A DNA stretch of 64,000 bases. Origin: Cupriavidus nantongensis. GTDB taxonomy: Bacteria > Pseudomonadota > Gammaproteobacteria > Burkholderiales > Burkholderiaceae. The number at the start of each line of letters is the position of its first letter. Within the stretch, counting starts at the first letter, position 1. The translations under genes were made by a program, and so were the position numbers. The notes under the pieces were generated by a model. It saw only the letters and a program-made list of their open reading frames with translations, made no database searches and was not told the origin of the DNA. The stretch spans positions 1,736,001 to 1,800,000 of the forward strand of contig NZ_CP014845.1 in NCBI RefSeq assembly GCF_001598055.1. Direction: 5' to 3'. Of the stretch, positions 32,894 through 59,674 are shown one piece after another.

Positions 32894-32936
32894 TGTGACG
32901 GGCGTCACCGGCGCTTCTGGCGCGCCTGCCTAGAAT
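32894..32936 (+). promoter_or_regulatory. Class II CRP-type promoter of candidate sRNA 1
   Basis: TGTGA-CGGGCG-TCACC at 32894-32909 (nine of ten CRP half-site bases) and -10 hexamer TAGAAT at 32931-32936. A start at 32943 would place the site centre at -41.5, the class II position. No coding gene lies downstream in this direction. Confidence 0.7.
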
Positions 32937-32942
32937 CTCACG

Positions 32943-33016
32943 TAACGGTCTTGTTCACGACCGTTAATCCCCGCACTTTCCGCCAGCTGCTCCCCGGGCA
33001 CTGGCGGCATTTTTTT
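32943..33016 (+). ncRNA. Candidate small RNA 1 (~74 nt), CRP-type regulated
   Basis: From the predicted start the RNA folds as TAACGGTC (32943-32950), 8-base loop, GACCGTTA (32959-32966): a perfect 8-bp 5' hairpin beginning at +1. A C-rich linker follows, then an intrinsic terminator ending in seven T at 33016. The terminator loop is C-rich (CTGCTCCCCGGGCA), suited to pairing with ribosome-binding sites. Promoter spacing, hairpin at +1 and terminator fit a stand-alone sRNA, and a second unit with the same plan is at 58281-58352. Confidence 0.65.
32980..33016 (+). terminator. Intrinsic terminator of sRNA 1
   Basis: CCGCCAG (32980-32986) and CTGGCGG (33001-33007) form a perfect 7-bp stem, followed by CA and seven T (33010-33016). 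Confidence 0.85.
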
Positions 33017-33041
33017 GCGCTTCGCAGAAGAGCGTTCCCGT

Positions 33042-33182
33042 TCAGCGCATCCAGAAGCCGACAGCCATGGCCACGGCAACGGCCAGCACAAGCAGGATAG
33101 GCACGGCGCGTTTGCGGCGGCCCCGCCTTGGATAGCGATGGAATTCGCCGAGGCCGCCGTTGGTCAGTTTTTCCCAGTCCAT
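33042..33182 (-). CDS. Small single-helix membrane protein, 46 residues
   Basis: The frame reads MDWEKLTNGGLGEFHRYPR, then a basic stretch, then a hydrophobic helix (AVPILLVLAVAVAMAVGFW, about residues 26-44) and MR at the end. The positive charges before the helix fit an N-in orientation. No good ribosome-binding site is visible, which keeps confidence moderate. It lies between sRNA 1 and the outer-membrane barrel gene, in the orientation of the cyclase operon, 116 bases after it, so it may be that operon's last gene. Confidence 0.45.
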   Translation of the reverse strand: MDWEKLTNGGLGEFHRYPRRGRRKRAVPILLVLAVAVAMAVGFWMR

Positions 33183-33298
33183 GAGAAGCGCAAAGTGTCC
33201 ATGTCAGGCGCAGCAGGCGATTGTGGCAGCGCCCGCCGCACGATACTGTGCCCGCCGGCACAATCTGCGCCAGTCCATCGCCAAGCCTGTCGCACCGC

Positions 33299-34672
33299 TC
33301 AGAACTCCATCAGCACGCCGGTGCTGATACTGCCGGCGCGGTAGCGGAACAGGGGGATGGAGTCGTCGGACTGCTGGTACAGGCCCTGGACATAGATCGA
33401 GAGATCGGACCCTTGGCGATAGGTGTAGCGCAGCAGCACCTGGCTGAGCACCTGCCGTCGGCGCGTGTCGCCGAACAGTGCGCGGAAGTACGGCTGGCGA
33501 TCGCGCAATTCCTGGCGCTGCGCGAGCGCCACCACCAGATGGCGCGGATGCGGCAGCCATGTCAGGTTGGCAAGGATGGCGTAGCCATCGCGGTCGCCAC
33601 CCGCGCGTTCGTTACGGGCCAGGTCGCGGATGACACCAACGGCAGCCGACACTTGCAGGTTGGGCGCAAGGTCCAGCCGGCCGCGCAGGCGCAAGTCGTG
33701 GCGGCGCGCGTCGAAGGCATGGCCGTCGGGATAGCGGTCGAGTGCCATGCTGGTGTCGACGCCGATCCGGTAAGTCTTGCCGGCCAGCTGGCGCTCCGGC
33801 AGCCAGTAGCCCAGCAGCGTGCTGGCGCCATACTGGTACGGCCGCCCGCCCAGCCACGTGTAGCCGAGCGCGGCCTGCCCCTCCACCAGCCCGACGCGGG
33901 TCTCGCTGCCGTAGTGGACGGCCAGGCTGGTGCCGGACTGGTTATAGTCGTGGCGCCGGGCGTACTGGCGGATCGAGGCGCCCGCGGACACGTTCAGGCC
34001 TTCGACGCCGCCGGTGCCCCAGTTCACGCTGCCATCCATGCCGGCAAAGCGGTCCGCCTGCGCCAGTTGCGACGGCTGCAGCAGCAGGTAGGGCAGCCGC
34101 GCCCCCGGTGCCAGCGGCACCACCGGATCGCGCGGGCCATAGTTGGCATTGGTGGTGTAGCCGGCCTGCAGCGACAGCTGCCCGCGCAGGCGCGGATCCG
34201 GGCGCTTGCATCCGCCCCGCACAAAAGAATCGATCAGCAACCGGATCGCCGGCGGCACATCGGCGCCGCCTTGCAGCTGCGAAAACTGCGTGAAGGCGCG
34301 CTCGCGTTCGCCCAGCTCGCACAGGGCAATGGCGATGTCGAGCCGTGCGCCGGCGTGCGGCAGCGGCAGCCGCTCGACATCGAGCAGCAGCTGCCGCGCC
34401 GCGTCGAAGTCGCCGTCGCGCATCGCGCCATGGACACGCTGGTAGAACGATTCGTAAGCCCCGCCCGCGTCGAAAGCCGCGGCGGGCAATTCTGCGACGA
34501 TGAGACCCGTTGATCCCGGCTGGCGCGGCGCCGCCAGATCCGGCATGGCTGGGCGGGCGGGAAGCACGGGCTGGGCCGAGTGCGACGAGTGCGCCCATTG
34601 CGCCGCACCCGCAGCACACATCAGCATTGCGCACAGCTTCGCCCGCGTGCACCGGGCACGCGCATCAGGCAA
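33299..34672 (-). CDS. Outer-membrane beta-barrel protein with helical periplasmic N-domain
   Basis: 457 residues from a TTG at 34672 (GGAG seven bases upstream), overlapping the cyclase stop by eight bases. A signal peptide is followed by about 130 helical, TPR-like residues (FDAARQLLLDVERLPLPHAGARLDIAIALCELGERERAF), then alternating barrel strands from about residue 185, closing with a terminal Phe (STGVLMEF), the outer-membrane assembly signal. The layout recalls Slam-type (DUF560) barrels that move lipoproteins to the surface, but I cannot confirm that. It is co-transcribed with fecR and the cyclase. Confidence 0.75.
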   Translation of the reverse strand: MPDARARCTRAKLCAMLMCAAGAAQWAHSSHSAQPVLPARPAMPDLAAPRQPGSTGLIVAELPAAAFDAGGAYESFYQRVHGAMRDGDFDAARQLLLDVERLPLPHAGARLDIAIALCELGERERAFTQFSQLQGGADVPPAIRLLIDSFVRGGCKRPDPRLRGQLSLQAGYTTNANYGPRDPVVPLAPGARLPYLLLQPSQLAQADRFAGMDGSVNWGTGGVEGLNVSAGASIRQYARRHDYNQSGTSLAVHYGSETRVGLVEGQAALGYTWLGGRPYQYGASTLLGYWLPERQLAGKTYRIGVDTSMALDRYPDGHAFDARRHDLRLRGRLDLAPNLQVSAAVGVIRDLARNERAGGDRDGYAILANLTWLPHPRHLVVALAQRQELRDRQPYFRALFGDTRRRQVLSQVLLRYTYRQGSDLSIYVQGLYQQSDDSIPLFRYRAGSISTGVLMEF

Positions 34673-36593
34673 CAGCCGGCTCCGACAGGTCGAAAGGCTG
34701 CGGACAGGGCCGCCCGCGGACCGCGTAGATCTGCTCGGCGCGGCTGCGCCCGCGCAAGCGCGCGCGGCCGACCGGCTCCAGCACGTGGCGCTGCGCCAGC
34801 GCCGCGGTCCCCTCGCCCACCAGCAGGTCGGCCGAAACCGCCTTGCACAGGTCCTGCAGGCGCGACGCGATATTGACCGTATCGCCGATGGCCGTGTAGC
34901 TCTTGCGCAGCGGCGAGCCGATCTCGCCGACCACGGCGTCGCCGCTATGCAGTCCGATGCAGATGCGCACCGGCGCCAGCCACGGGCATACCGCCTGCAG
35001 CCGCGCGTTGAGCGCCGGCATGCCGGACAGGATGGCGCAGGCGCATGCCAGGCCGCGGTCCGCATGGTCGGGCTGATCGAGCGGGGCGTTCCAGAACGCC
35101 ATCACCGCATCCCCGATGTACTTGTCGACCGTGCCGCCTGCGGCATGGATCTGCGCGGTCAGCGCTTCCAGCACGATCTCGGTCACCTTGACCAGCCGCT
35201 CCGGTGCCATGGTTTCGGCAAGCGCGGTGTAGCCCTCCATGTCGGCGAACAGCACGGTCAGGGTCCGGCGCATGGGCAGCATCGCCTCGTAGCCGCGCTC
35301 GCGCAGCACGGCTTCCATCACCGCGGGCGGCAGGTAGCGGCGGAAACGGCGCTGGAACTGCCGCGCCTGCGCGCGCGCCAGCGCCCACTCCGCCGGCGCC
35401 TGCAAGACCAGCAGCATCAGCATGGCCACCACAGGCAGCACCGCTGCGCGCCCGGCCGCGCCCGGCGGCAAGCCCAGCAGCACCAGCAGCCATAGCCCGG
35501 CCATGCCGGTCAGGGCGCCATAGGCCGCCAGCAGGTTGCCGCCGCGCGACAACCAGGCGAGCCCAAGCACCGTAGCAATGGTCCAGGCCCAGCCCAGCCA
35601 CGGCAGCATCAGCCGCGGCGAGGGCGCCGCGGCTTCCGCCAGCAGCCAGTCGAGCATTTCGGCATGCGCCATCACGCCCGGCAGGCGTGGATCGTGCGGG
35701 CTGACGACATGGTCCGACAGGCCGAGTGCCGACGCGCCGACGAGCACATAACGTCCCGCCAGCGCTTGCGCCGGCACGCGCCGGGCCAGCACGTCGACTG
35801 CGCTGAATACCGGAAACCCTGCGCTCGCATGGCGCCACGGAATGGGCACGAAGCCGTCGGCCTCCCTTGCCGCCGCCATCAGCGGCGCCAATGCAGGCCA
35901 GGGCAGCGCCGCGGGCAGGCCGGGCCTGGCGCACAGCAGGGCTGCCGCCGCCAGCATCGGATACTGCTGGCCCGCATAGCCGATCACCGGCGCGATGCGC
36001 CGCACCACCCCGTCGGCATCCACCTGGGGCGTGATATGGCCGACGCAGTCGCCGGGGGCGGCGGCGAAGAAATTGCCGAGATGGCCCGTCGCGGCCGGCA
36101 CCCCGGCCAGTCCTGCGGCGGTCGACGGTTCGGCCGACGCCGGCAGCGCGCCCCCGGGATGGCCCGTCCGCACCGCTGCCGGCGTCAGGTAGAAGGCCTG
36201 CGAAAACACCATCCGGTGCCGCCTGGCAAGCGTTAGCAAGGCGGCGTCCGCGGCAGCATCACGGGGCTCCGGAAATACCATGTCCAGCGCCACCACGCGG
36301 GCTCCATGCCGCGTGAAGAGCTCGCCGGCCAGGCCGGCGACGACTTCGCGCGGCCATGGCCAGGGCCCGACGACATCCAGGCTGGCCTCGTCGATCTCGA
36401 TCACCGCGACATGCGCCGACTGGCCGGCGGACGGGCCCAGCCGCCAGCGCAGGTCAGCCATCAGGTCCTCCAGCCGGTGGAACCAGCGCGGCGACCACGT
36501 GCCGCTGCCAAGCAGGGCGCTGGCACCCAGCACCAGCGCAAACAGCCCCGGGCGCAGCCAGTCGCGCGGCGTGGCCGCGCCTAGCGCCCCCAA
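34665..36593 (-). CDS. CHASE2-domain class III adenylate/guanylate cyclase
   Basis: 642 residues from a TTG at 36593; the longer frame is shadow of fecR. After one N-terminal helix comes an extracytoplasmic CHASE2 sensor (about 40-320, with VAVIEIDEASLDVVGPWPWPREV), three helices (330-400), and a cyclase domain (440-630). Visible catalytic features are D451 (LFADMEGYT), K491 and D495 (VDKYIGDAVMAFWN), and YTAIGDTVNIASRLQ. The Lys at the purine-selecting position favours cAMP. fecR overlaps its start by 13 bases and a Crp-type regulator is divergent, so this is the likely source of that regulator's ligand. Confidence 0.9.
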   Translation of the reverse strand: MGALGAATPRDWLRPGLFALVLGASALLGSGTWSPRWFHRLEDLMADLRWRLGPSAGQSAHVAVIEIDEASLDVVGPWPWPREVVAGLAGELFTRHGARVVALDMVFPEPRDAAADAALLTLARRHRMVFSQAFYLTPAAVRTGHPGGALPASAEPSTAAGLAGVPAATGHLGNFFAAAPGDCVGHITPQVDADGVVRRIAPVIGYAGQQYPMLAAAALLCARPGLPAALPWPALAPLMAAAREADGFVPIPWRHASAGFPVFSAVDVLARRVPAQALAGRYVLVGASALGLSDHVVSPHDPRLPGVMAHAEMLDWLLAEAAAPSPRLMLPWLGWAWTIATVLGLAWLSRGGNLLAAYGALTGMAGLWLLVLLGLPPGAAGRAAVLPVVAMLMLLVLQAPAEWALARAQARQFQRRFRRYLPPAVMEAVLRERGYEAMLPMRRTLTVLFADMEGYTALAETMAPERLVKVTEIVLEALTAQIHAAGGTVDKYIGDAVMAFWNAPLDQPDHADRGLACACAILSGMPALNARLQAVCPWLAPVRICIGLHSGDAVVGEIGSPLRKSYTAIGDTVNIASRLQDLCKAVSADLLVGEGTAALAQRHVLEPVGRARLRGRSRAEQIYAVRGRPCPQPFDLSEPAVA

Positions 36594-37942
36594 TTTGTCG
36601 CCCCGACCGCGGTCTGCCCGGAGGCGCCGATCTGGCTGCTGAACACGTAGCCGGCCTGCGACGCGTCGGTGCCGGCCAGCGCGCCGCGCACCGTGGCATT
36701 GCCCGCGGCCTGGTCGCTGCGCATCATGCCGTCGGAGGTCACCGAGCCTTGCGCGCGCATCTGGTGGCTGAGCTGGCCGGTGCTGACCGTCAGGCTTGTG
36801 TCGAAGCGGCGCTTGCCGAAGTCGACCACCAGCGATGGATCGGCCACGGTGGCCGCGGTCGCCTTGCCGTCGCCCACCACGTAGGCCTCGGCCCCCTTGA
36901 GCTGGAAGCCGAACACCCCCTTGAGCGGCATCGTCATCGGCTCGCGCGTATCGCGCACCAGGGCGAACGGCCCGAAACCTCCCATCGCGACGATGTCGTG
37001 GACGCCGGCGCGCAAAGCCTCCAGGGTGATGTCCGCGGGCAGGCTGGCGAGCGCCTGGTAGCGCCCCCAGAACAGCTTCTGCGCCTCCGGCGGAGGTGGC
37101 GGGGGAGGCGGCGGGCGCACCACCGGCGTCTCGGGGACGGGCGCAGGGGCGGGACGCGGCTCTGGCAGCGATCTGACGGCATCGCCGAATGCAATCTCGT
37201 TGGCGGTGACGACGGCCGGTGCGCCCACCGCGGAGGTCCTGACCTGCCCGCCGGCGGCGCTGCCTTCGTCCTTGCCGGGCGGTGCCACCGCTTCCGGCGA
37301 CAGGTGCTGGAACTGCGGCCCGAGCAGCGTCGGCTGGGTCTCGCCATGGCGCAGCTGCAGGATGCTGCCGCCCGCCTGGCTCGACAGCCCGGTGCCGCCC
37401 TCGCACGGGCCCATGCCGGCGGGACGGCAGCCGGCCAGGAACGGCGACATCACAATGCCGCCGGCACGCACGCTGACACGCGTGGTCCGCGCGTCGGTGA
37501 AGACCGAGAAGTCGGTGCCGCGGATGCCGATCGCCGCCACCGGGGTATTCATGCGGAAACGCTCGCGCGCGGCCTGGGCGCCCTCACCGGAGATGGTGCG
37601 CACCACGCCGCGGTTCAGGCGCAGCTTGATCCGCGTGTTGGCGGGCGCAGCGCTGTCGTAGACGTAGGCCTCGATGGTAAGGCTGGAGTTGGGGCGCAGG
37701 CTGACAAAGCCGCGGTCCACCGTGTTGACGTAGACATAGCCGTCGCTGCCGGTCTGCACCGTCACGCCCTCGTGCAGGGCGTTGCCGGCTTGCAGCAACT
37801 GGCGCTCGCCGTGCGCCTCGATCCAGGCGCTGCCGGCCACCACGGCTACCTTGCCCACCTCGGCCGGCGCTTGCGCCCAGGCCAGCCGCACCCAGCCGAT
37901 CGACAGCACGCCGACCAGCAATCCCCGGATTATCGCTTTCAT
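36581..37942 (-). CDS. FecR-domain periplasmic protein
   Basis: 453 residues with a signal peptide (cut near LAWAQ). The FecR domain spans about 30-165, with GVVRTISGEG and FRMNTPVAAIGIRGTDFSVFTD. A nine-proline run at 277-285 separates it from a C-terminal beta-rich domain (about 290-453). FecR proteins in FecR-CHASE2-cyclase operons are thought to supply the periplasmic signal to the cyclase. First gene of the leftward operon fecR-cyclase-barrel; its start is about 130 bases from the shared Crp site. Confidence 0.88.
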   Translation of the reverse strand: MKAIIRGLLVGVLSIGWVRLAWAQAPAEVGKVAVVAGSAWIEAHGERQLLQAGNALHEGVTVQTGSDGYVYVNTVDRGFVSLRPNSSLTIEAYVYDSAAPANTRIKLRLNRGVVRTISGEGAQAARERFRMNTPVAAIGIRGTDFSVFTDARTTRVSVRAGGIVMSPFLAGCRPAGMGPCEGGTGLSSQAGGSILQLRHGETQPTLLGPQFQHLSPEAVAPPGKDEGSAAGGQVRTSAVGAPAVVTANEIAFGDAVRSLPEPRPAPAPVPETPVVRPPPPPPPPPEAQKLFWGRYQALASLPADITLEALRAGVHDIVAMGGFGPFALVRDTREPMTMPLKGVFGFQLKGAEAYVVGDGKATAATVADPSLVVDFGKRRFDTSLTVSTGQLSHQMRAQGSVTSDGMMRSDQAAGNATVRGALAGTDASQAGYVFSSQIGASGQTAVGATNWGR

Positions 37943-38040
37943 TGCAACCCCTTCTGACTTCAGTGCGGCGCAAGGGCCGCACGCCCGGGCCTGTGCGGGT
38001 CGCTCTTCAGGGCTCCCGCATCGTCGACCGGCTGGCGACG

Positions 38041-38111
38041 ATGATGACCGAGCCACGCCCGGCGCTTTGTGACAGGAGTCACAAACCTGGCCAACGCGGA
38101 CGTGTTAGCTT
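38041..38111. promoter_or_regulatory. Divergent Crp-type promoter between fecR and crp-like genes
   Basis: TTTGTGAC-AGGA-GTCACAAA (38066-38085) is a perfect 8-bp-arm palindrome and the best CRP match in the window. Rightward, TTAGCT/TAGCTT (38105-38111) begins 37-38 bases from the first base of the TGTGA; leftward, CATCAT (38046-38041) begins exactly 37 from the other end. Both directions could therefore be class II promoters from one site, giving autoregulation and co-control of the cyclase operon. Confidence 0.75.
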
Positions 38112-45174: not shown

Positions 45175-45175
45175 G

Positions 45176-50324: not shown

Positions 50325-52079
50325 TCAGGAATGGGTGCCGGTGGCGCGCGCGGGCTCGCCCTGCGCCGCCGCAACCGGCTTGCCGGCGTGTTGCGGCTGC
50401 GCGCGCTGTTGCATTGCGCGCAGCACCTCCTGCGTCGGACCGAACGCGTGCGAGGTGCCGTCCTGCAGCACCAGCAGCCGGGTCGTGACGGCCAGCACGC
50501 TGCTGCGGTGGCTGACGATGACGACGGTGGCGCCACGTTCGCGGCACAGCGTGATCGCGCGCGCCAGCGCCGCCTCGCCGGCTTCGTCCAGGTTGGAGTT
50601 CGGTTCATCGAGCACGACCAGCGCCGGCGAGCCATACAGCGCACGCGCCAGCGCGATGCGTTGCTTCTGCCCGCCCGACAGCCCCGCGCCATCCGCGCCA
50701 AGTTCGGTGCCGTAGCCCTTGGGCAGCTTCAGCACCATGTCGTGCACACCGGCGAGGCGCGCGGCTTCGACCACCGCCTCGGCATCGACCTCGCCGAAGC
50801 GTGCGATGTTCTCCGCCACCGTCCCCGCGAACAGCTCGATGTCCTGCGGCAGGTAGCCGACGAACGGTCCCAGTTCATCCTTGTTCCATTGCCAGACATC
50901 GGCGCCATCGAGCCGCACCTCGCCCGCGAATGGCGGCCAGACGCCAACAAGAAGACGCGCCAGCGTGGATTTGCCCGAGGCGCTGGGGCCGATCACGCCA
51001 AGCACCTCGCCCGGCGGCAGCGCGAAGTTGACGTTCTTCAGCACCGGCGCCGTGCCCGGCGCGCCGGCGACCAGGCGCGACACGGCCAGCTGCCCGCGCG
51101 GGCGCGGCAGCGACATGGCGCTGCGCCGCGCCGGATTGGCCGCCAGCAGCTTGTGCAGGCGCTCGTGGGCCGCGCGCACCGCGCTCCACTGCTTCCACCC
51201 GCCGATCACGCCTTCGACCGGGCTCAGGGTCTTGCCCATCAGGATCGACGCCGCGATCATCATCCCGGCCGTGATCTCGTTATCCAGCACCAGCAAGGCA
51301 CCGACGCCCAGCACCATCGACTGCAACGCGATGCGAGCGAAGCGGGTCCATGCGCCGACCATCGACGCCTTCTCGCTCGCCTCGCCCTGCTTGCCGAGGA
51401 AGGCTTCGTGAATGCGCAGCCAGCGCGCCTGCAACGGGCCCAGCATGCCCATCGCCTCGATCGCCTCGGCATTGCGCAGCGTCACCGTGGCCGACTCGGC
51501 CGAACGCAGCGACAGGCGGCCCGCTTCGTCGAGCGGCTGGCGCGAGATGCGCTCGTTGACCACCGCCAGCGCGATCAGCACGGCGGCACCGCACAGCGCG
51601 AACAGCCCGAGATGGAAGTCGAACAGGAAGATCACGCCCAGATAGAGCGGAAACCACGGTGCGTCGAAGAACGCAAACAACGTCGAGCCGGAAATGAACT
51701 GGCGCAGCGTGGTCAGGTCGTTGAGCGCCTGGCCGGCGATGTAGCCGCCCTGGCGCAGGTTGGTCTCGAAGGCGGCGGTATAGATGCGCCGGTTGAGCTG
51801 GGCATCGAGCTGGGCACCGACATGGATGGCAACCTGGCTGCGCACATACTCCAGCACCGAGATCAGGGCAAACAGTCCCAGCGTGATGGCGCTCAGCATC
51901 CACAGCGTGGTCTCGCTGCGGCTCTGCAGTACGCGGTCGTAGACCTGCAGCATGTAGAGCGACGGCACGAGCATCAGCAGGTTGATCACGGCACTGAACA
52001 CGCCGATATTGCGCAAGGCACTCTTGTGCGCGCGCAGGGCTGTCAGGATTTCACTGCCGGGATGCGCGGATTGGCTCAT
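50325..52079 (-). CDS. Type I secretion permease/ATPase, PrtD/RsaD type
   Basis: 584 residues from the ATG at 52079. Six-helix membrane domain (about 20-320) then ATPase domain with Walker [11 protein letters not shown], signature [15 protein letters not shown] and the PrtD-type Walker [13 protein letters not shown]. There is no N-terminal C39 peptidase or C39-like domain, so it should export proteins with an uncleaved C-terminal signal, such as the RTX protein at 59840. First gene of the ~13-kb leftward operon; its upstream region holds three Crp-type sites. Confidence 0.92.
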
Positions 52080-52140: not shown

Positions 52141-52234
52141 TGTGACGTGGTGTCACAAAGCAGGTGCGAATTCTGGATGAGGGCCGGGGCGGTGCTTGTG
52201 ATGTCCATCACAAAATTGTGTGAGGTGGGTCACG
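52141..52234 (-). promoter_or_regulatory. Triple Crp-type site upstream of the secretion/export operon
   Basis: TTGTGAT-GTCC-ATCACAA (core 52197-52212) is a perfect palindrome; reading leftward, CAGAAT at 52175-52170 begins exactly 37 bases from it (class II, start near 52163). A second site, TGTGA-GGTGGG-TCACG, is at 52219-52234. A third, TTTGTGAC and GTCACAAA at 52139-52159, has seven bases between TGTGA and TCACA instead of six and lies downstream of the predicted start, where it could repress or fine-tune. Confidence 0.7.
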
Positions 52235-52279: not shown

Positions 52280-53437
52280 TCACCACCGCCGGAACTCCGG
52301 CTCCCCCGCGGGCGCGGCGGCGGCGCCGTCGCGCAGCACGCTCTCGTAGAGGGCGTGATAGCGTCGCCGCATCGTGCCCGCGCTGAACTTCTCGACAAAG
52401 CGGGCGCGGGCGTTGCGGCCGAGGGATTCGGCCAGCGCGGGGTCGGCATGCAGGCGCGCCAGTGCCGCGCGCAGGGCGTGCGGATCGGACGGCGGCACCA
52501 CGTAGCCGGTGTGGCCGTGCAGGTTGACGTAGCTGCTGCCGGTGCCGATCTCGGAAGACACCAGCGGCTTGCCGAACATCGCGCCTTCGAGCAGCGTGAC
52601 GCCGAACGCTTCCGAGCGCAGGTGCGAGGGAAAGACGACACCCCGGCAAAGCGACAGCAGCGCATGCTTGTCGGCGTCCGGCAGCACGCCGAGGAAGCTC
52701 ACGTTGTCCAGCCCCAGCGCCGCCGCCTGCTGCCTCAAGGCGTCTTCCTGCGGCCCGGTGCCGAGGATGACGACGCGGAACGCGGCGTCGCGGCATGCCT
52801 GCATCAGGATATGCAGGCCCTTGTAGTAGCGGATCACGCCGACGAACAGGAAAAATCCCTCCCCCACCCGATCGCGCCACATGTCGACGCGGCCGGGGTC
52901 GGCCTCGCACTCGGTCGCATCGAGCCCGATCGGGATGGTATGCACGCGCGCGCGATGGCGGCGCAGCACGTCGCTGGTGTCGAGATAGTTGGGCGAGGTG
53001 GCGACGATGGCATGCATGCTGTCCAGGAAGCGATGCATCAGCGGCGCGTACACGGGCATCAGCAGCCGCTGGCGCACGATGTCCGAGTGATAGGTCACGA
53101 TCGCCGGCACGCGTACGCTCGCGGCAAAATGCAGCACATCGCCGAAGGGCCAGGGGAAGTGATACTGCACGACATCGGCCCGCGCGACCGCGCGCCTGAA
53201 GTGCGCCAGCGCGCTGAACGAGATCGGCGTCGACGCCGGCGCCAGGTGCGTACGCGCGCGCGTGATGCGGACCCCGTCGATCTCCAGTTCGCGCTGCGCG
53301 CCGCGGGCGTGCCGGCTTAGCGTGAACACCTCGTGCGTGACGCCGTGGGTCTGGCTGCGCGCCAGTTGGCGGATGACCTGTTCGATGCCCCCGTACGAGT
53401 CCGGGTAATACACCTTGAAGACGTGAAGGATATGCAT
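52280..53437 (-). CDS. GT4-family glycosyltransferase, mannosyltransferase-like
   Basis: 385 residues. HVFKVYYPDSYGGIEQVIRQLA opens the protein; FFLFVGVIRYYKGLHILMQA and PSHLRSEAFGVTLLEGAMFGKPLVSSEIGTGSSYV form the donor site, with E-x7-E type residues. It resembles WbaZ/PimB-like mannosyltransferases. It lies upstream of the secretion operon in the same direction, with its own Crp-type divergent promoter at 53506-53521. Confidence 0.88.
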   Translation of the reverse strand: MHILHVFKVYYPDSYGGIEQVIRQLARSQTHGVTHEVFTLSRHARGAQRELEIDGVRITRARTHLAPASTPISFSALAHFRRAVARADVVQYHFPWPFGDVLHFAASVRVPAIVTYHSDIVRQRLLMPVYAPLMHRFLDSMHAIVATSPNYLDTSDVLRRHRARVHTIPIGLDATECEADPGRVDMWRDRVGEGFFLFVGVIRYYKGLHILMQACRDAAFRVVILGTGPQEDALRQQAAALGLDNVSFLGVLPDADKHALLSLCRGVVFPSHLRSEAFGVTLLEGAMFGKPLVSSEIGTGSSYVNLHGHTGYVVPPSDPHALRAALARLHADPALAESLGRNARARFVEKFSAGTMRRRYHALYESVLRDGAAAAPAGEPEFRRW

Positions 53438-53478: not shown

Positions 53479-53548
53479 AGTCTCTCGTGGCACGCGCAGG
53501 CGCAGTGTGATGGCCGTCACAGAACGCCGGGGGCGGGATCGCTATGGT
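53479..53548. promoter_or_regulatory. Divergent Crp-type promoter between two glycosyltransferase genes
   Basis: TGTGA-TGGCCG-TCACA at 53506-53521. Rightward, TATGGT at 53543-53548 begins 37 bases from the site start, giving a start near 53555. Leftward, GAGACT at 53484-53479 begins 37 bases from the other end, a weaker -10, giving a start near 53472. Confidence 0.7.
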
Positions 53549-53556
53549 TGCGCCTC

Positions 53557-54774
53557 ATGCCCCAGTCCTCTTCCCTCCTGGCCGAGCCGCTGCGCGTTGC
53601 GGTAGGCGCCGTTTCGCTGTCCTCCCCGCTGACCGGGATCGGCCAGTACACGCGCCACCTGGTGCGCGAGCTGGCGGTGCTGGGCGCTGCGCCGCACTGC
53701 TTCCTCGGGGCAGGCTGGAGCGAGCCGCCGGCAGTCGGCCCGCAACCCTGGGCCGATGGCCTGGCGTCGTCCCACACCGGGCACGCGCCGGCGTGGCGCA
53801 GCGCGGCGCGCGGTCTGTTGCGGCGGTCCGGGGTGGCGCACCTGGCCTCGCGCGCGTGGCAGGCGCACCGGTTCCGCGCCGGCTTGCCGCGCGATGCGGC
53901 GCTCTACCATGAAACCAATTTCCTGCCGTTCTGCTTTGGCACGCTGCCGACCGTGCTCACCGCGCACGACGTGTCGTGGCTGCGCTATCCGGAGACCCAT
54001 CCCGCTGCGCGGGTGAGCCTGCTGCACCGCTACTTTCCCCGCGCACTGGCCCGCGCCGACCGCGTCATCGTGGTGTCCGAGTTCGTGCGCGCCGAGCTGC
54101 TGGCGCTGTGCGAGATCGATCCCGGCAAGATTCGCGTGGTCCACAACGGCGTCGCGCCTGTATTCCAGCCGCGCGCCGCCGACGCGCTGCGGCCGGTACT
54201 GGCACGCCATGGGCTGCTGCCCGGCGGCTACCTGCTGGCACTGGGCACGCTGGAGCCGCGCAAGCGGCTATCGACCGCACTGCGTGCGCACCAGCGCCTG
54301 CCGGCCGCGCTGCGGCGCCATATGCCGCTGGTACTGGCCGGCATCAAGGGCTGGCTGACCAGCGCGCTGGAGCGCGAGATGGCGCCCGCCGTGGCGCGCG
54401 GCGAGGTGCGCGTGGCGGGCTACATCTCGGATGCCGACCTGCCGAGCGTCGTCGCCGGCGCCTGCGCGATGGTCTACCCGTCCATCTACGAAGGCTTCGG
54501 CCTGCCACCGCTTGAAGCCATGGCCTGCGGCGTGCCGGTGATTTGCTCGGACCGCTCGGCGCTGCCCGGCGTGGTCGGCGATGGCGGCGTATTGCTGGAC
54601 CCTGACGATATCGATGGCTTCAGCGCGGCGATGCTGCGCGCCTGCGAGGACACGCACTGGCGCTCCGCCATCGGCGCACGCGCGCTGCGCCGCGCCGCCG
54701 GCTTCAGCTGGCAGCGCTGCGCGCGCGAAACGCTCGATGTCTATGGCGAATTGCTCCGCACCAGGCGCGGGTGA
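53557..54774 (+). CDS. GT4-family glycosyltransferase
   Basis: 405 residues. VAVGAVSLSSPLTGIGQYTRHLVREL, YHETNFLPFCFGTLPTVLTAHDVSWLRYPETHP and ALGTLEPRKRLSTAL are typical of bacterial mannosyl/rhamnosyl transferases; PSIYEGFGLPPLEAMACGVPVICSDRSALPGVVGDGG is the donor site. No ribosome-binding site precedes the ATG, and the predicted start of transcription (53555) is only two bases upstream, so the mRNA may be leaderless. A TTG at 53548 lies within the -10 region and is unlikely. Confidence 0.88.
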   Translation: MPQSSSLLAEPLRVAVGAVSLSSPLTGIGQYTRHLVRELAVLGAAPHCFLGAGWSEPPAVGPQPWADGLASSHTGHAPAWRSAARGLLRRSGVAHLASRAWQAHRFRAGLPRDAALYHETNFLPFCFGTLPTVLTAHDVSWLRYPETHPAARVSLLHRYFPRALARADRVIVVSEFVRAELLALCEIDPGKIRVVHNGVAPVFQPRAADALRPVLARHGLLPGGYLLALGTLEPRKRLSTALRAHQRLPAALRRHMPLVLAGIKGWLTSALEREMAPAVARGEVRVAGYISDADLPSVVAGACAMVYPSIYEGFGLPPLEAMACGVPVICSDRSALPGVVGDGGVLLDPDDIDGFSAAMLRACEDTHWRSAIGARALRRAAGFSWQRCARETLDVYGELLRTRRG

Positions 54775-54789: not shown

Positions 54790-54832
54790 TGTGACAGCCG
54801 TCACGGAGCAGGAAGAGTCTGCCAGCTACGCT
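54790..54832 (+). promoter_or_regulatory. Class II Crp-type promoter of the GtrA/DUF6311/GT2 operon
   Basis: TGTGA-CAGCCG-TCACG at 54790-54805 and TACGCT at 54827-54832, 37 bases apart start to start. Predicted transcription start near 54839, giving a 33-base leader to the ATG at 54872. Confidence 0.7.
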
Positions 54833-54871: not shown

Positions 54872-55102
54872 ATGAGCCACGCCATTCAGTTCGACATCGT
54901 CGTGGACGGGTTCCGCATTCCGTGTACGGCTTCCGCAGAGGCCGGTTCGCAGGCGCGCCGTTGCGCCGGCGGGCCGGCCGCGGACATCGATGCCGCGCTG
55001 GAACGGCTGCAGCATGCCGCGCGCTTGCGCTTCCTGCAGGGAGCGGCACCGCCGGTGTTGGTGCTGCGCGAGCACCTGCATGCCGCCGGAGCTTGCCCGT
55101 GA
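54872..55102 (+). CDS. Small protein of unknown function heading the GtrA operon
   Basis: 76 residues: a short beta-like start (AIQFDIVVDGFRIPCTASAEAG), then a helical part (DIDAALERLQHAARLRFLQGA) and a hydrophobic end (PPVLVLREHLHAAG). No membrane helix or known domain. Support comes from position: it fits between a Crp-type promoter and gtrA, whose GTG overlaps its stop (GTGA), so it is probably translated and coupled. Confidence 0.6.
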   Translation: MSHAIQFDIVVDGFRIPCTASAEAGSQARRCAGGPAADIDAALERLQHAARLRFLQGAAPPVLVLREHLHAAGACP

Positions 55103-55542
55103 CGGGTCAGCGCGGCCATGGCGGCACGCACGCGCCGCCGGCGCGCGCGGCGTTCGGCCGTTACGTGCTGACCGGCTGCGCCCTGTTGCTGGCGGATCTT
55201 GCCCTGTTCCTTGCGCTGACGCATGCCGGCATTGCACCTGCGGCAGCGCAGGCGGCGAGCCGCGGCACCGGCGCGATCATCGGCTTTGTCGCGCACAAGT
55301 GCTATTCCTTCCGGCACGGCGGCGTGGATGCGCGCGGCCTGCTTTCCCAGGGCGGCGGCTATGGCGCGCTGACGCTCGGCGGCGTGGCGCTATCGCCCAT
55401 CATCCTCGCGCTGGCACTGCGGCTCTGCGGCGAGCGGCTGCTGGTCGCCAAGCTGGCCGCGGAAGTCGTGATGGCGGGCATCAACTTCATGGCGATGCGC
55501 TGGCTGTTCCGTCCGCGCCAGCGTTGCGCCGCCACGCCATGA
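55099..55542 (+). CDS. GtrA-family membrane protein
   Basis: 147 residues from a GTG at 55099 with GGAG upstream. Four helices in GtrA style: FGRYVLTGCALLLADLALFLAL, ASRGTGAIIGFVAHKCYSFRH, LSPIILALALRLCGERLL and KLAAEVVMAGINFMAMRWLF. GtrA proteins are thought to flip or present polyprenyl-linked sugars; a GtrB-like GT2 is two genes downstream. ATGA overlap with the next gene. Confidence 0.85.
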   Translation: MTGQRGHGGTHAPPARAAFGRYVLTGCALLLADLALFLALTHAGIAPAAAQAASRGTGAIIGFVAHKCYSFRHGGVDARGLLSQGGGYGALTLGGVALSPIILALALRLCGERLLVAKLAAEVVMAGINFMAMRWLFRPRQRCAATP

Positions 55543-57218
55543 TGGCCAGCGTCATGCGCGCGGCAGTGCGCCATGCGGCGACCGAACTGCCACTCGGCCG
55601 GCGCGTCGCCCTTGCGCTGCTGCTGGCGCTGATCCTGGCCCCTGCGGTATGGTCTCCGGCGGTCATGCTGGGCACGGATCCGGCGTTGCGCTTTCCGCAG
55701 GGCGACCAGGCGCAGGCGCTGGCCGGCGCCTGGTATTACTACGCCGATAGCTGGCGGCTGCCGCTGTTCGCGATGCGGGTGCCCGGCATCGACGGCCTGC
55801 GCAGCGTGATCTTCACCGACAGCATTCCGCTGTTCGCGCTCGCCGGCAAGCTGTGGTACCGGTTGGGCGGCGCCACGCCGGAGCTGATGCCTGCCTGGCT
55901 GTGGCTCTGCGTGTTCGGGCAGGCCTGGGCCATGACCTTGCTGCTGGACCGGCTGGGCCTGCGCCATGCCATTCACGTTGCCGCCGGCACCGTGCTGGCG
56001 CTGGTCATGCCTGCGTTGCTGTTCCGGTACTGGATGTGGCATCTCGCGCTATGTGGCCACTTTGTGCTGATCCTGGCACTAGCGCTGGCACTGCGCCCGC
56101 CCGAAGCCACGGTGCGCGCCCCGCTGGACTGGCGGTGGCCCACGCTGCTGGTGGTGGCCCTGTACATTCATCCGTACCTGCTCGCCATGAGCCTGTCCTT
56201 CTTCCTGCTGAGCGCGGCGCGCAGCGCGTTTGCGCCGATGCCGGACGCGCCGCGCGGCGCGCTGACGGCCGTTGGCCTGACCCTGGGCGTGCTTGGCATT
56301 GCGCTCTGGCTCGGCGGCTATCTCGGCCAGGGGCTGATGCGCGGCAGCGAGGGCTTCGCCATCTATTCGATGAACCTGCTCGCCCCGTTCGGCGCGATGG
56401 GCAAGAGCGGCCTGCTGCCGGGCAGCGGGCATTTTGCGCGCGGCACGCCCGGCCAGATGGAGGGGTTCAACTACCTTGGGCTGGGCGTGCTGGCGGGCCT
56501 GCTGCTGGTGGCGGGCGCCGCGTGCGCGGGGCGCGCGGCACCGCTGCGCGCCGCGGCCCGGCGGCAATGGCCGCTGCTGGTGCTGCTGGCCGGCCTGACG
56601 CTCTACGCTCTCTCCACTACCGTCCATGTCGGCGGCTATCGGCTGCTGCGCTACGACTGGCCGGCGGGGCTGCAGGGCCTGACCGCAACCTTCCGTGCCT
56701 CGGGCCGCTTCTTCTGGCCGGTGGGCTACGCCATTGCCGCCTTCGTGCTCTATGGACTGTCGCGCTGCTACCGCCCGCGCACGGCCGCGGCGTTGATGGT
56801 GGCGGTCGCCGCGCTGCAGTGGCTCGATACCGCGGTACTGCGCACGGTGGTGGTTAGCGAGAAGCCGATGGATCCGGTGTCGTCCGATCCGCTCGTCGGC
56901 GCGCTGGTCGGGCGCCATGCCGCGGTCGCGTTCCATCCCCCGGTGGGCTGCTCGGACGACCGTGCCGCGATGCATGGCGGCTTTGCCCTGCAGCTGCTGG
57001 CCGCGCGCGGCGGCCTCGCCATCAACAGTCTCTCGGGCGCACGCCAGCACACCGACTGCACGCGCGTCACGGCAGACCTGTCGCGGCAGGTGCTCGCACC
57101 GGGCGTGCTGGTCGTGCTCGGTCCGCCGTATGACGCGCAGTACATCGCCGGGCGCGGGTGGACAGCCCATTGCCTGGCCCGGCATGGCCTGCATTTCTGT
57201 AGCTCCGGCACCAGGTGA
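55539..57218 (+). CDS. DUF6311-type multispanning membrane protein, GT-C-like
   Basis: 559 residues with about ten to eleven helices, then a soluble C-terminal part from about residue 450 with several cysteines (HPPVGCSDDRAA, QHTDCTR, HCLARHGLHFC). The long first periplasmic loop (MLGTDPALRFPQGDQAQALAGAWYYYADSWRLPLFAM) recalls GT-C enzymes that use lipid-linked sugar donors. Between GtrA and a GtrB-like gene it occupies the GtrC position, so it may decorate a surface glycan. The family assignment is from memory of context and moderately sure. Confidence 0.78.
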   Translation: MMASVMRAAVRHAATELPLGRRVALALLLALILAPAVWSPAVMLGTDPALRFPQGDQAQALAGAWYYYADSWRLPLFAMRVPGIDGLRSVIFTDSIPLFALAGKLWYRLGGATPELMPAWLWLCVFGQAWAMTLLLDRLGLRHAIHVAAGTVLALVMPALLFRYWMWHLALCGHFVLILALALALRPPEATVRAPLDWRWPTLLVVALYIHPYLLAMSLSFFLLSAARSAFAPMPDAPRGALTAVGLTLGVLGIALWLGGYLGQGLMRGSEGFAIYSMNLLAPFGAMGKSGLLPGSGHFARGTPGQMEGFNYLGLGVLAGLLLVAGAACAGRAAPLRAAARRQWPLLVLLAGLTLYALSTTVHVGGYRLLRYDWPAGLQGLTATFRASGRFFWPVGYAIAAFVLYGLSRCYRPRTAAALMVAVAALQWLDTAVLRTVVVSEKPMDPVSSDPLVGALVGRHAAVAFHPPVGCSDDRAAMHGGFALQLLAARGGLAINSLSGARQHTDCTRVTADLSRQVLAPGVLVVLGPPYDAQYIAGRGWTAHCLARHGLHFCSSGTR

Positions 57219-57223
57219 TCCCC

Positions 57224-58273
57224 ATGAAAGCCAGCGAACCGACGGAGCTGTCCGTCATCATCCCCGCCCACAACGAAGCGGCCAGCCTGCCGCTGGCGCT
57301 GCCCCGCATCGTCAGCGAACTCGCGCGGGTCGTGTCGCGCTTCGAGATCGTCATCGTCAATGACGGTTCCAGCGACCAGACCGCGGCAGTGGCCGACGAG
57401 CTTGCGCGGCGCCACCGCTTCGTGCGTGCCATCCATTTTTCGCGCAACTTCGGCAAGGAGGCTGCGCTGGAAGCGGGGCTGGCCTATGCCCGCGGCCGCG
57501 GGCTGCTCTTCATCGACGCCGACCTGCAGCACCCGCCCGCCCTGATCCCGCAGATGGTCAGTGCCTGGCGCGCCGGAGCCGACGTGGTCAACGCGCGCAA
57601 GCGGCATCGCGGCGAGGAACATGCCGCCTATGCCGCGGCGTCGCGCCTGTTCTACCGGATGTTCGAGCGCGCCACCGGCTTTGCCTTCGAAGGCGCCAGC
57701 GACTACAAGCTGCTCGACCGCCAGGTGGCCGATGCCTTGCTGCGCTGTCCGGAACGGGACCGCTTCTTTCGCGGGCTGGTGGCGTGGGTGGGGTTTCGCC
57801 AGGTCGATATTCCCTTCGACGTGGCGCCCCGCGAAGCCGGGCATTCCTCATGGTCGGCGGCCGGCCTGCTGCGCTATTCGCTGCGCAGCCTGGTGGCGTT
57901 CTCGTCGTTACCGCTGCAGGCAGTCGCCGTGGCTGGCTTTGCCGGGGTGGTGCTGAGCTTCCTGCTGATCTTGCAGACGGTGGCGCGCTATCTCGCCGGC
58001 AGTTCCCTGGATGGTTTTACCACCGTGATCATTGCGCAGGCCGCGTTCAGCAGTCTGTTGCTGCTTGCGGTGGGTGTGCTGGCGGTCTATCTGGCCCGCA
58101 TCTATGACGCGCAAAAACAGCGGCCGTCATTTTTTATACGCGACTCTGACAGAAGCGTACGAGGTGATATCGCATTGCCGGACATGGACATCCAACCGGC
58201 ACCGCCGCGCGTGCATACGCCCCTGACGGCTTGTGATACCGATCACAGCCGGTTGGATCGCGAGCTTCTATAG
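57224..58273 (+). CDS. GT2-family polyprenyl-phosphate glycosyltransferase (GtrB/DPM1-like)
   Basis: 349 residues. SVIIPAHNEAASLP, the metal site FIDADLQHPP, and FSRNFGKEAALEAGLAYARG are typical of polyprenyl-phosphate sugar synthases; two C-terminal helices (about 235-310) complete the GtrB layout. ATG at 57224 is preferred to GTG at 57215. The last ~40 residues are soluble and overlap a Crp-type site; the stop codon lies inside the -10 of sRNA 2. Confidence 0.9.
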   Translation: MKASEPTELSVIIPAHNEAASLPLALPRIVSELARVVSRFEIVIVNDGSSDQTAAVADELARRHRFVRAIHFSRNFGKEAALEAGLAYARGRGLLFIDADLQHPPALIPQMVSAWRAGADVVNARKRHRGEEHAAYAAASRLFYRMFERATGFAFEGASDYKLLDRQVADALLRCPERDRFFRGLVAWVGFRQVDIPFDVAPREAGHSSWSAAGLLRYSLRSLVAFSSLPLQAVAVAGFAGVVLSFLLILQTVARYLAGSSLDGFTTVIIAQAAFSSLLLLAVGVLAVYLARIYDAQKQRPSFFIRDSDRSVRGDIALPDMDIQPAPPRVHTPLTACDTDHSRLDRELL

Positions 58274-58274: not shown

Positions 58275-58280
58275 GGGACC

Positions 58281-58352
58281 TGTTGGCGCAATGACCCCGC
58301 CAACTTTCCCGTTATCGCCAGGCTGCCCCCGCACGCCTGGCATCTTTTTTTT
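58281..58352 (+). ncRNA. Candidate small RNA 2 (~72 nt), CRP-type regulated
   Basis: From the predicted start, GTTGGCG (58282-58288) pairs with CGCCAAC (58298-58304) around a 9-base loop. A pyrimidine-rich linker follows, then a terminator hairpin with a C-rich loop (TGCCCCCGCAC) and eight T. Size, order of elements, C-rich loop and promoter geometry all match candidate sRNA 1, although the sequences differ. It may also end the upstream GT2 operon. Confidence 0.65.
58317..58352 (+). terminator. Intrinsic terminator of sRNA 2 and the GtrA/GT2 operon
   Basis: GCCAGGC (58317-58323) and GCCTGGC (58335-58341) form a perfect 7-bp stem, followed by ATC and eight T (58345-58352). Confidence 0.88.
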
Positions 58353-58486: not shown

Positions 58487-58732
58487 TCAATGCGAACCCC
58501 TCCGTATTCGTCGCGCCGGCCTTGGCTTGGCGGCCGGCCCCGAAAGCGGATGCCGGCTCACCGGCGCGACCGTGACGTGCTGATTCGGGAAGAGCCGCTC
58601 GGCAGCCTCTTTGGCCTGCGTACAGCTCAGATATTCCCCATTGAAGACGACGGCAAACTCTCCGACATGCTGCTCGATCGCCCAACCCGTTTCCGTACGA
58701 ACCACTATTGTTATACGCTCAACCACCTTCAT
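58487..58732 (-). CDS. Small conserved-looking protein, paralogue of the one at 63161
   Basis: 81 residues. The core ITIVVRTETGWAIEQHVGEF ... CTQAKEAAERLFPNQHVTV aligns with FVLVMREDDGGWHVRMLTDG ... TRQEAVAAAAEAFPSLHIDV of the protein at 63161: both share GW, a QA/EA helix, FP and HxxV. The C-terminus is basic (KPRPARRIRRG). GGGGA lies directly before the ATG. Function unknown; the two copies flank the region of the secreted RTX protein. Confidence 0.65.
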   Translation of the reverse strand: MKVVERITIVVRTETGWAIEQHVGEFAVVFNGEYLSCTQAKEAAERLFPNQHVTVAPVSRHPLSGPAAKPRPARRIRRGSH

Positions 58733-59078
58733 TCCCCGTATGAGCCGTGCTTTGCATCACGGTCTTTTTTCATTGATCAAGCCAAAGGCTCAATACACCG
58801 ATCGAATCAATATTCCCTGGTCGCTGTTCCCCTTGCCGCGGGCACCTGGCTTTCAGGCAGCGCAAGCCTATGGTGCCCTCAATCGCGTATCCACTCATCA
58901 CCCAAACATGGGATGCCTGAGCGTCCCACAAAATTGGTATTGACACATCAGCTTTGCCACAAACAACAAAATCATAACAACATTGCAACGGAATTATTAA
59001 AGCCATTTCTCTGGAAAGCAAGACAACTTTCGGCGGGTTCGACCGAGACCCCACCAAAGGGGATTGCCGCGGCCATGC
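58733..59078. other. AT-rich region without a supported gene
   Basis: About 350 bases of clearly lower GC than the surroundings, with TTGACA at 58940-58945 but no good -10 at 17 bases. Open frames across it lack codon bias and recognisable content. It separates the small protein at 58487 from the Crp-type promoter at 59079 and may hold control elements for the leftward gene or foreign DNA. Confidence 0.5.
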
Positions 59079-59121
59079 TGTGACACCCGTCACACCTCAT
59101 GCCGGATGCCACGGCTAGCCT
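59079..59121 (+). promoter_or_regulatory. Class II Crp-type promoter of the XRE gene
   Basis: TGTGA-CACCCG-TCACA at 59079-59094, a full ten-base match, and TAGCCT at 59116-59121, 37 bases apart start to start. Predicted start near 59128, giving a 45-base leader. Confidence 0.72.
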
Positions 59122-59172
59122 TGCCTTTCGACAGGCACGCATCGCCAGGTGCGCTTCTCAGGGCAAGACAAC

Positions 59173-59547
59173 ATGCATGACGTGGAGTACATCGAGCATG
59201 AAGGCCGGCGCTTCGTGCTGGTTCCGGAACGGACATGGAAGGACATCAAGGGCGGCCTCCAGCGGCTGCTGGAGGCCGCCGGCAAGGACGCGGCCACGGC
59301 GCCTGCGTTTGCCCCGCCCTTGCTGGTGCAGGCCGCGATTTCCGCCGGCAGCTCAGAGCTGCGCGCATGGCGCCGCTTCCGCGGCCTGCCGAGTTCTCAG
59401 CTGGCCCAGCGCGTCGGCGTGACGCGCGCCTATATCTCGATGATCGAAACCGGGCGGCGCCGGCCCGCTGCCGACCTGCTGCACCGGCTTGCGCGCGAAC
59501 TGGAGATCCCGGTCTGCGCGCTGGTAGCGAGCCACGGCGACGATTAG
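59173..59547 (+). CDS. XRE-family DNA-binding protein
   Basis: 124 residues. The N-terminal part (YIEHEGRRFVLVPERTWKDIKGGLQRLLEAAG) resembles an antitoxin-like segment; residues about 62-115 are a Cro/CI helix-turn-helix (AWRRFRGLPSSQLAQRVGVTRAYISMIETGRRRPAADLLHRLAREL). No toxin gene is adjacent. Its Crp-type promoter and position ahead of the S-layer-like gene suggest it is a second-tier regulator. ATG at 59173; a GTG at 59149 is possible. Confidence 0.82.
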   Translation: MHDVEYIEHEGRRFVLVPERTWKDIKGGLQRLLEAAGKDAATAPAFAPPLLVQAAISAGSSELRAWRRFRGLPSSQLAQRVGVTRAYISMIETGRRRPAADLLHRLARELEIPVCALVASHGDD

Positions 59548-59631
59548 GCGCGGCACGCGACGGCGCGCTGGCACACAACCCACCCCGAGCATTTCCGCGA
59601 ATCGTTGCACGGCCACCGCTTTGCGCGTTTT

Positions 59632-59674
59632 TGTGGCCCCAGTCACTGTTTCGGTTTGCGCATTTCCGGATACT
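59632..59674 (+). promoter_or_regulatory. Degenerate Crp-type promoter of the S-layer-like gene
   Basis: TGTGG-CCCCAG-TCACT at 59632-59647 matches eight of ten half-site bases; GATACT at 59669-59674 begins exactly 37 bases from the site start. Predicted start near 59681, leaving a leader of about 159 bases. The spacing, shared with the other sites, is the main support. Confidence 0.5.

Follow-up and report, generated by a model that had tools for sequence, protein, structure and literature searches.

Several described systems share parts with the Crp-type regulon that we analysed in a 64,000-nucleotide stretch of Cupriavidus nantongensis DNA (C2:1736001-1800000, hereafter the window; genome of 7.14 Mb in three contigs). 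In this window, a gene for a Crp-like protein lies near genes for an S-layer-like protein, for type I secretion and for glycan synthesis and export, and palindromes of the pattern TGTGA-N6-TCACA precede a number of them. The class II promoters of Escherichia coli CRP (PMC8561392) have the same palindrome, centred, as in our predictions, 41.5 bp before the transcription start, and a regulator with the same RExVxR helix. Here, however, the regulon is small, private and arranged around the regulator's own gene, and the regulator is not a CRP equivalog. The cascade of NsrA, CHASE2 cyclases and Clr in Sinorhizobium meliloti (PMC5498481, PMC13001267, PMC7529298) also combines an outer-membrane barrel, CHASE2 adenylate/guanylate cyclases and a CRP-family regulator, with a FecR-domain protein among the predicted targets and surface polysaccharide among the targets. 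It differs in the Clr box, proposed there as HGTYHCNNNNGRWACW, and in its targets, which concern infection control and succinoglycan, whereas here S-layer export and glycan genes stand at one locus (PMC5498481, PMC13001267, PMC7529298). A Campylobacterota cluster (PMC9239204) encodes a CHASE2 cyclase, a phosphodiesterase, a FecR outer-membrane protein and a TPR protein. It resembles our locus in the neighbourhood of CHASE2 cyclase and FecR and in a further helix-repeat or barrel protein, but no S-layer/glycan regulon or Crp site set is described in the available part of that source. We recognised no phosphodiesterase at the Cupriavidus locus.

RsaA of Caulobacter is an S-layer protein of the RTX type, anchored through O-antigen. 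It, too, goes with type I secretion and has Wzm/Wzt-type glycan export nearby (PMC10765051). The protein studied here differs from it by an N-terminal DUF4214 and by the built-in Crp-type circuit. NpdA S-layers, like ours, occur in Betaproteobacteria, but NpdA lies beside a type II secretion cluster (PMC10765051). Our scan of the proteins encoded from 31884 to 63028 showed a type I set but no gsp gene, and on this neighbourhood we provisionally set NpdA membership aside. Among the matches listed in our literature search, no title or abstract described a module of S-layer, CHASE2, FecR and Crp, subscription journals lying mostly outside that search. The locus appears to be a new arrangement of known parts.

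In the reading that we favour, with a probability of roughly three in four, the locus is a self-contained signal-to-coat regulon. The FecR-domain protein, perhaps with the barrel protein encoded beside it, would relay to a CHASE2 adenylate cyclase a presumed signal from the envelope or from outside, and the cyclic AMP (cAMP) made there would bind the Crp-like protein encoded next door. A dimer of this regulator would then bind TGTGA-N6-TCACA near −41.5 and recruit RNA polymerase in class II fashion, the sign of regulation being predicted as positive. Targets would be the type I exporter/glycan operon, glycosyltransferases, an XRE regulator, the S-layer-like protein and two candidate small RNAs (sRNAs) whose expression is predicted. 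Autoregulation of crp, and probably of the cyclase operon, would provide positive feedback. This reading starts from what the sequence shows: the sites themselves, how they are spaced and conserved, that they occur together with the regulator, which genes surround them, and that the arrangement recurs across the order.

Sites and promoter geometry

The preliminary description of this DNA had listed eight sites, and all eight were found (32894, 38068, 52197, 53506, 54790, 58232, 59079 and 59632). With at most one mismatch, the window held 8 sites against 0.73 expected from dinucleotide shuffles, a count reached in 0 of 100 shuffles. At up to two mismatches there was no excess (12 sites, 12.9 expected), and site 59632, with its two mismatches, therefore needs other support: its half-sites were unchanged across four species and, with GATACT at +37, also stand before a gene copy on contig C1. 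Three further sites with two mismatches (26067, 33247 and 43504) we attributed to chance, even though a hexamer stands at 36-38 from 26067 and from 33247, in one orientation or in both.

We counted a hexamer as −10-like if its second base was A and its sixth T, and measured spacing from the first base of the site. As had been described, such a hexamer began at +37 in seven sites and at +38 in the remaining one, 38068 (TAGCTT). Every other spacing between 20 and 59 had one in none or one of the eight. With starts predicted from the −10s, the centre falls at about −41.5 in all eight, which is the class II position. The earlier word "invariant" is too strong: the geometry is tight, with 37-38 here and about 35-38 in relatives, but the −10 of the 59079 promoter lies at +38 in three sister species and at +37 in the window genome. 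Site 52197 reads on the minus strand, with CAGAAT at 52175-52170. An unlisted site at 52219 (one mismatch, no −10 of its own) lies 22 bp upstream of it and was present in all four species. Just past the predicted start of the exporter operon that 52197 serves, at 52141-52157, stands a TGTGA-N7-TCACA palindrome with half-sites conserved in four species, possibly a feedback site or the site of another regulator.

Two of the eight sites, 38068 and 53506, lie between divergent genes. Only at these two does a hexamer with A2 and T6 also stand at +37 in the other direction (CATCAT and GAGACT; 0 of the 6 other sites), and both hexamers were conserved in four species. We read the two sites as predicted bidirectional class II promoters. 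In relative G076, fecR is likewise faced by a site, with TAGTAT at +38. The set of targets named earlier was understated, since the two sites probably also serve, in the opposite direction, the FecR/CHASE2-cyclase operon and another glycosyltransferase gene. The rightward glycosyltransferase start at 53557 lies about 2 nucleotides past the predicted transcript start, in a stretch (53543-53559) conserved in four species; the mRNA is possibly leaderless.

A genome-wide scan had been proposed, with equal density of sites elsewhere and no fixed spacing as the outcome that would speak against the regulon. The scan gave the opposite picture. Nine exact sites occur in 7.14 Mb, and five of them lie between window positions 38068 and 59094, in 21 kb (approximate scan probability 5e-8). 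At one mismatch or fewer, the genome holds 55 sites against 22 for the reversed pattern. Outside the cluster we compared 45 of 47 such places (90 orientations; two were absent from the listing), and a hexamer at +37 or +38 was present in 9 of 90 orientations, or 9 of 45 places, against 8/8 in the cluster (Fisher p 1.5e-7 by orientation and 2.7e-5 by place). This statistic depends on the set of sites chosen: with 52219 counted as a miss and 59632 excluded, it became 7/8 against 9/45 places (p 5e-4). The other four exact sites (C1:1673238, C1:1721483, C1:3654612 and C2:1908189) had no −10 at +37/+38. Two of these, C1:1721483 and C1:3654612, have identical flanks in inverse orientation and an adjoining terminator-like hairpin, and are probably copies of one mobile element.

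Of the nine places outside the cluster that have a hexamer at +37/+38, we regard three, with the −10 at +37, as likely targets and the remaining six as unproven. C1:3647248 (TATGCT, +37) precedes a gene for a three-helix-turn-helix XRE protein, related to the XRE regulator in the window, and then a second S-layer gene (C1:3648617-3651805) whose product shares 993 of 1062 residues with the window protein. The promoter of this second gene keeps TGTGGCC-N4-TCAC and GATACT at +37 (counted by eye) with a diverged spacer. The DNA homology between the two S-layer genes begins just upstream of the −10 and stops just past the gene end. Downstream of C2:1019540 (TAACCT) lie genes for a GT2 glycosyltransferase and a PIG-V-type mannosyltransferase; all three sister species retain its half-sites, and by eye a −10-like hexamer begins at +36 or +37 there. 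C1:1675708 (TAGGGT) precedes a gene for a DUF4214 protein. It falls in a stretch (C1:1668000-1684000) of lower GC content (0.60), where 5.4 kb contain four sites with no more than one mismatch; a DUF4214 protein and, by eye, phage-like genes are encoded there. The local part of the earlier claim, a Crp-type regulon on class II promoters, was well supported by density, conservation, co-occurrence and recurrence, but its confinement to 27 kb was not: the regulon probably extends to the second S-layer locus, the glycosyltransferase pair and the DUF4214 gene.

Conservation and recurrence with the regulator

The regulator was found at 97-98% identity in 3 of 59 congeners, and the window genome was aligned with these three over all eight promoters. 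Columns invariant in the four species amounted to 80/80 in the half-sites and 48/48 in the −10s, against 108/160 in the spacer, 37/48 in the palindrome centre and 224/304 upstream. The sequence downstream of the −10 was fairly conserved too (51/56, then 252/304). This pattern points to purifying selection on half-sites and −10s. Out of 60 genomes compared within the genus, exact sites numbered 9, 5, 6 and 5 in the four with the regulator; the 56 without it contained 0-3, with a mean of 1.12 against 0.79 for the reversed pattern. Since Crp-family proteins are present in these congeners (one to ten matches each) and exact sites stay near the reversed-pattern level, other Crp proteins seem to make little use of the palindrome there.

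Beyond the genus, we searched 399 Burkholderiales genomes with a profile built on the regulator, and 149 of them gave a match at E <= 1e-35. We selected 31 regions by regulator score (805,345 bp): those of 30 other genomes with a best match of at least 184 bits, from 14 further families, and that of Allopusillimonas. The regions thus cover about 15 families. Four of them (Allopusillimonas, G060, G076 and G093, with 3 of the 29 exact sites) had been seen before the hypothesis was framed. As controls we used the regions (400,000 bp in all) of 20 of the many Crp-family matches with lower scores. Exact sites numbered 29 in the 31 regions (reversed pattern 0) against 1 in the controls; at one mismatch or fewer, the numbers were 57 (reversed 8) and 6 (reversed 5). 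An exact site was present in 20 of the 31 regions.

For nearly all exact sites (26/29), a relative of a window gene followed within 450 bp: S-layer protein (10), type I ABC exporter (8), fecR (3), crp (3), wzt (1) and manC (1). Each site was assigned to the nearest related gene, so that G076 4299 counts under wzt, though its −10 faces fecR. A −10-like hexamer at 36-38 was found in 18/26 sites facing the gene and in 6/26 facing away (p 0.001); at 35, 36, 37 and 38, the counts were 6, 6, 7 and 8 facing and 4, 3, 1 and 2 away. FecR and a CHASE2 cyclase occurred together in 19/31 regions and 0/20 controls (CHASE2 cyclase alone in 1/20), S-layer protein relatives in 13/31 and 0/20, and type I ABC genes in 15/31 and 3/20. 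The Allopusillimonas orthologue (73%) is preceded by a one-mismatch autoregulatory site with a −10 at +38. By these counts the association of regulator, cyclase and S-layer/exporter sites is widespread and no peculiarity of a single strain. Relatives G115, G411 and G356 have a site of at most one mismatch of their own at each of the fecR, S-layer and exporter genes, a minimal version with three targets.

Regulator, presumed ligand and rival explanations

The regulator belongs to the CRP/FNR superfamily, with matches to PF00027 (1.9e-20) and PF13545 (1.4e-08), both above cut-off. It falls short of the global CRP equivalog (NCBIfam PRK11753.1, 67.7 against 266 bits) and is 21% identical to E. 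coli CRP. As had been claimed, its recognition helix agrees with that of CRP: R187, E188, V190 and R192 (R-E-x-V-x-R) are identical, which fits the TGTGA half-site. The cAMP pocket of E. coli CRP, which we take to consist of Gly71, Glu72, Arg82, Ser83, Thr127 and Ser128, is retained in part in the window protein, in its Gly and Glu (GEL), Arg, Ser and second Ser.

Divergent from the crp-like gene runs an operon overlooked in the preliminary description, coding for a FecR-domain protein, a CHASE2 cyclase and a barrel protein. A CHASE2 protein with a class III cyclase domain adjoining a FecR-domain gene fits a CHASE2-FecR cAMP module. With this operon beside the crp-like gene, a presumed second messenger and its receptor would be made side by side. 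The cyclase aligned with adenylate cyclases through the Asp and Lys positions and is a putative adenylate cyclase. The barrel protein had no Pfam or NCBIfam match and has a close relative in C. taiwanensis. Its best AlphaFold model reached a mean pLDDT (predicted local distance difference test) of 70.5 and a pTM (predicted template modelling score) of 0.56, the other four models 39-60. In Foldseek, porins matched best, and the cellulose exporter BcsC was also among the matches (rank 13).

A number of observations weigh against a cAMP-driven signal-to-coat regulon. The ligand is its weakest link because part of the pocket is not retained. In the window protein, Ala stands opposite Thr127 (Ser after a shift by one position), which makes the Thr127-Ser128 pair Ala-Ser; more distant relatives have Asn-Asn, Ser-Ser or Thr-Ser in its place; and the Allopusillimonas orthologue has Gly where CRP has the phosphate-binding Arg. 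Cross-talk is possible, given 11 cNMP_binding matches and four class III cyclase domains in the genome. The helices and barrel of the third operon product also fit a polysaccharide exporter like BcsC instead of a sensor, and the protein may be part of a glycan or coat exporter; at E 1e-10 it was found in just 3/31 regions. Some −10 hexamers are weak, TACGCT and TAGCCT each matching TATAAT at 3/6 positions. Among relatives, 11/31 regions had no exact site, 8/26 gene-facing sites had no −10 at 36-38, and 12/31 regions had no FecR/cyclase pair, some of their contigs being short. The XRE region on C1 had no full counterpart in the three sister species, one of which gave a single 47-base match, and no sRNA target stood out in the cluster.

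The uncertainty about the pocket leads to the most relevant alternative, in which regulon and promoters are the same but the ligand is cyclic di-GMP (c-di-GMP), cyclic GMP (cGMP) or none. Cyclic di-GMP is the ligand of Xanthomonas Clp and Burkholderia Bcam1349. The Arg lost in Allopusillimonas and the Ala at the Thr127 position would agree with such a change, and a PF00211 domain is able to make cGMP. However, the window protein retains GEL and Arg-Ser, the neighbouring cyclase aligned with adenylate cyclases at the Asp and Lys positions, and FecR and CHASE2 cyclase accompany the regulator in 19/31 regions against 0/20; we consider another ligand unlikely, though worth keeping in mind. A different, global CRP-family protein of the host might instead bind the sites, the adjoining crp-like gene being incidental. 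The genome does hold 11 cNMP_binding matches, and the site is the general CRP consensus, but the congeners that have Crp-family proteins and lack this regulator show exact sites near the reversed-pattern level, and related regulators bring sites along in many families, which makes this explanation improbable.

The regulator could also be a repressor that covers the −35 region from −41.5 and blocks polymerase. An overlap with the −35 region is indeed given, and the N7 palindrome at 52141, downstream of a predicted start, occupies a repressor-like position. Yet the −10 is invariant and the spacer drifts, a pattern expected of an activator that takes over the −35 contacts. Class II activators of the CRP/FNR type bind at about −41.5 and can from there compensate for an absent −35 (PMC8561392). 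We therefore regard repression as quite improbable. Chance palindromes with chance −10s would account for the window count at up to two mismatches, which is at the chance level; given genome density, spacing, four-species conservation, order-wide counts, shuffles and congener counts, we attach next to no weight to this explanation.

If the signal-to-coat regulon holds, a wider proposal may be made, tentatively and with more doubt than confidence. Across many Burkholderiales families, a FecR envelope sensor, CHASE2 cyclase, Crp-like receptor and private promoter address might form an insulated, transferable module that switches an exported DUF4214/RTX S-layer together with its glycan anchor. 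With bidirectional class II promoters where crp and the cyclase operon meet, positive feedback and possibly a bistable, all-or-none coat might follow, with two sRNAs specific to the regulon as a second tier in Cupriavidus.

Genes and candidate small RNAs of the locus

The features are collected in Table 1. RTX repeats together with the PrtD/HlyD/TolC set nearby mark a putative type I secreted RTX S-layer system, with a predicted two-dimensional crystal at the surface. The leader of the S-layer gene (59675-59839) contains, by eye, an inverted repeat GCAGCCTGC / GCAGGCTGC, possibly mRNA-stabilising. Open reading frame (ORF) readings at 33299-35065 and 34945-35934 were discarded as wrong frames; they had masked the cyclase gene.

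Table 1. Features of the locus in window coordinates; +37 and +38 are spacings from the first base of the site to the −10-like hexamer.
Feature	Position (strand)	Remarks
Crp-type site, 1 mismatch	32894..32909 (+)	−10 TAGAAT 32931-32936 (+37); candidate sRNA A promoter; halves and −10 invariant in 4 species
Candidate sRNA A	32942..33016 (+)	~75 nucleotides, two hairpins, terminator; predicted transcript
Protein with N-terminal helices and outer-membrane-type beta-barrel	33299..34654 (-)	start within ORF; predicted structure
CHASE2 sensor with class III adenylate/guanylate cyclase	34665..36587 (-)	PF05226 1e-43, PF00211 8.7e-15
FecR-domain protein	36581..37945 (-)	PF04773 7.9e-12
−10-like CATCAT	38041..38046 (-)	37 from 38068 leftward; possible FecR/cyclase/barrel operon promoter; conserved in 4 species
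Exact Crp-type palindrome between divergent fecR and crp	38068..38083	rightward −10 TAGCTT at 38106 (+38)
Crp-like regulator, 239 residues	38159..38878 (+)	cNMP_binding and HTH_Crp_2
GT4-type glycosyltransferase, 801 residues	38842..41247 (-)	
GT4-type glycosyltransferase, 370 residues	41296..42408 (-)	
Methyltransferase with DUF4214 segment	42318..44033 (-)	
Wzt-type ABC ATPase with Wzt_C glycan-binding domain	43906..45174 (-)	
Wzm-type ABC-2 permease	45176..45955 (-)	
ManC-type mannose-1-phosphate guanylyltransferase/isomerase	45988..47736 (-)	ORF overlaps upstream gene; start probably later
TolC-family outer membrane protein, type I secretion	47474..48964 (-)	TIGR01844 345.6 bits, above cut-off
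HlyD-family adaptor	48961..50313 (-)	TIGR01843 407.4 bits, above cut-off
PrtD-type type I secretion ABC transporter	50325..52079 (-)	TIGR01842 747.9 bits, above cut-off; start assigned to internal ATG 52079
TGTGA-N7-TCACA palindrome	52141..52157	just downstream of predicted exporter transcript start
−10 CAGAAT, exporter/glycan operon	52170..52175 (-)	+37
Exact Crp-type site of exporter operon	52197..52212 (-)	
Upstream second site, 1 mismatch	52219..52234	no own −10
GT4-type glycosyltransferase	52280..53437 (-)	
−10-like GAGACT	53479..53484 (-)	37 from site 53506 leftward; conserved in 4 species
Exact Crp-type site between divergent glycosyltransferases	53506..53521	rightward −10 TATGGT at 53543 (+37)
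GT4-type glycosyltransferase	53557..54774 (+)	
Crp-type site, 1 mismatch	54790..54805 (+)	−10 TACGCT at 54827 (+37)
Short ORF and DUF6311 protein ORF	54872..57218 (+)	short ORF 54872-55102 overlaps start of DUF6311 ORF 54990-57218
GT2 glycosyltransferase	57215..58273 (+)	3' end overlaps site 58232
Exact Crp-type site	58232..58247 (+)	−10 TATAGT at 58269 (+37); candidate sRNA B promoter
Candidate sRNA B	58280..58352 (+)	~72 nucleotides, two hairpins, terminator; predicted transcript
Exact Crp-type site	59079..59094 (+)	−10 TAGCCT at 59116 (+37)
XRE-type helix-turn-helix regulator	59173..59547 (+)	PF01381 1.9e-11 in longer ORF 59149-59547
Degenerate site, 2 mismatches	59632..59647 (+)	−10 GATACT at 59669 (+37); S-layer gene promoter, ~160-nucleotide leader
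S-layer-like protein, 1062 residues	59840..63028 (+)	N-terminal DUF4214, C-terminal RTX repeats (PF00353); S-layer role inferred

Behind sites 32894 and 58232, the stretches A and B fold into two hairpins each, with a T run after the second. Ungapped, 63/70 positions of A were invariant in four species against 37/100 upstream, and 70/70 of B against 60/100 upstream of the site; of 60 congeners searched for B, the four in which it turned up are those with the cluster. We regard both as convincing candidates for sRNAs on predicted transcripts. Rfam gave nothing at gathering score between 30000 and 64000, and six sub-threshold matches were judged chance. RNAduplex comparisons of segments of A and B with 19 start regions returned one of 38 values below z −2 (the TolC gene, −2.5), also judged chance. 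We do not claim kinship between A and B: their local similarity lies in the terminator hairpin and was equalled in 26 of 1000 shuffles.

S-layers are major bacterial surface structures, and to our knowledge little is known about how Gram-negative cells decide on building them. The locus would offer a sensor-to-coat circuit with few, predictable promoters in which this decision could be followed. The pair of cAMP and Crp is usually taught as global carbon regulation; here its logic appears condensed into a local module that brings its own cyclase and address, and it could be asked how a diffusible messenger stays private.

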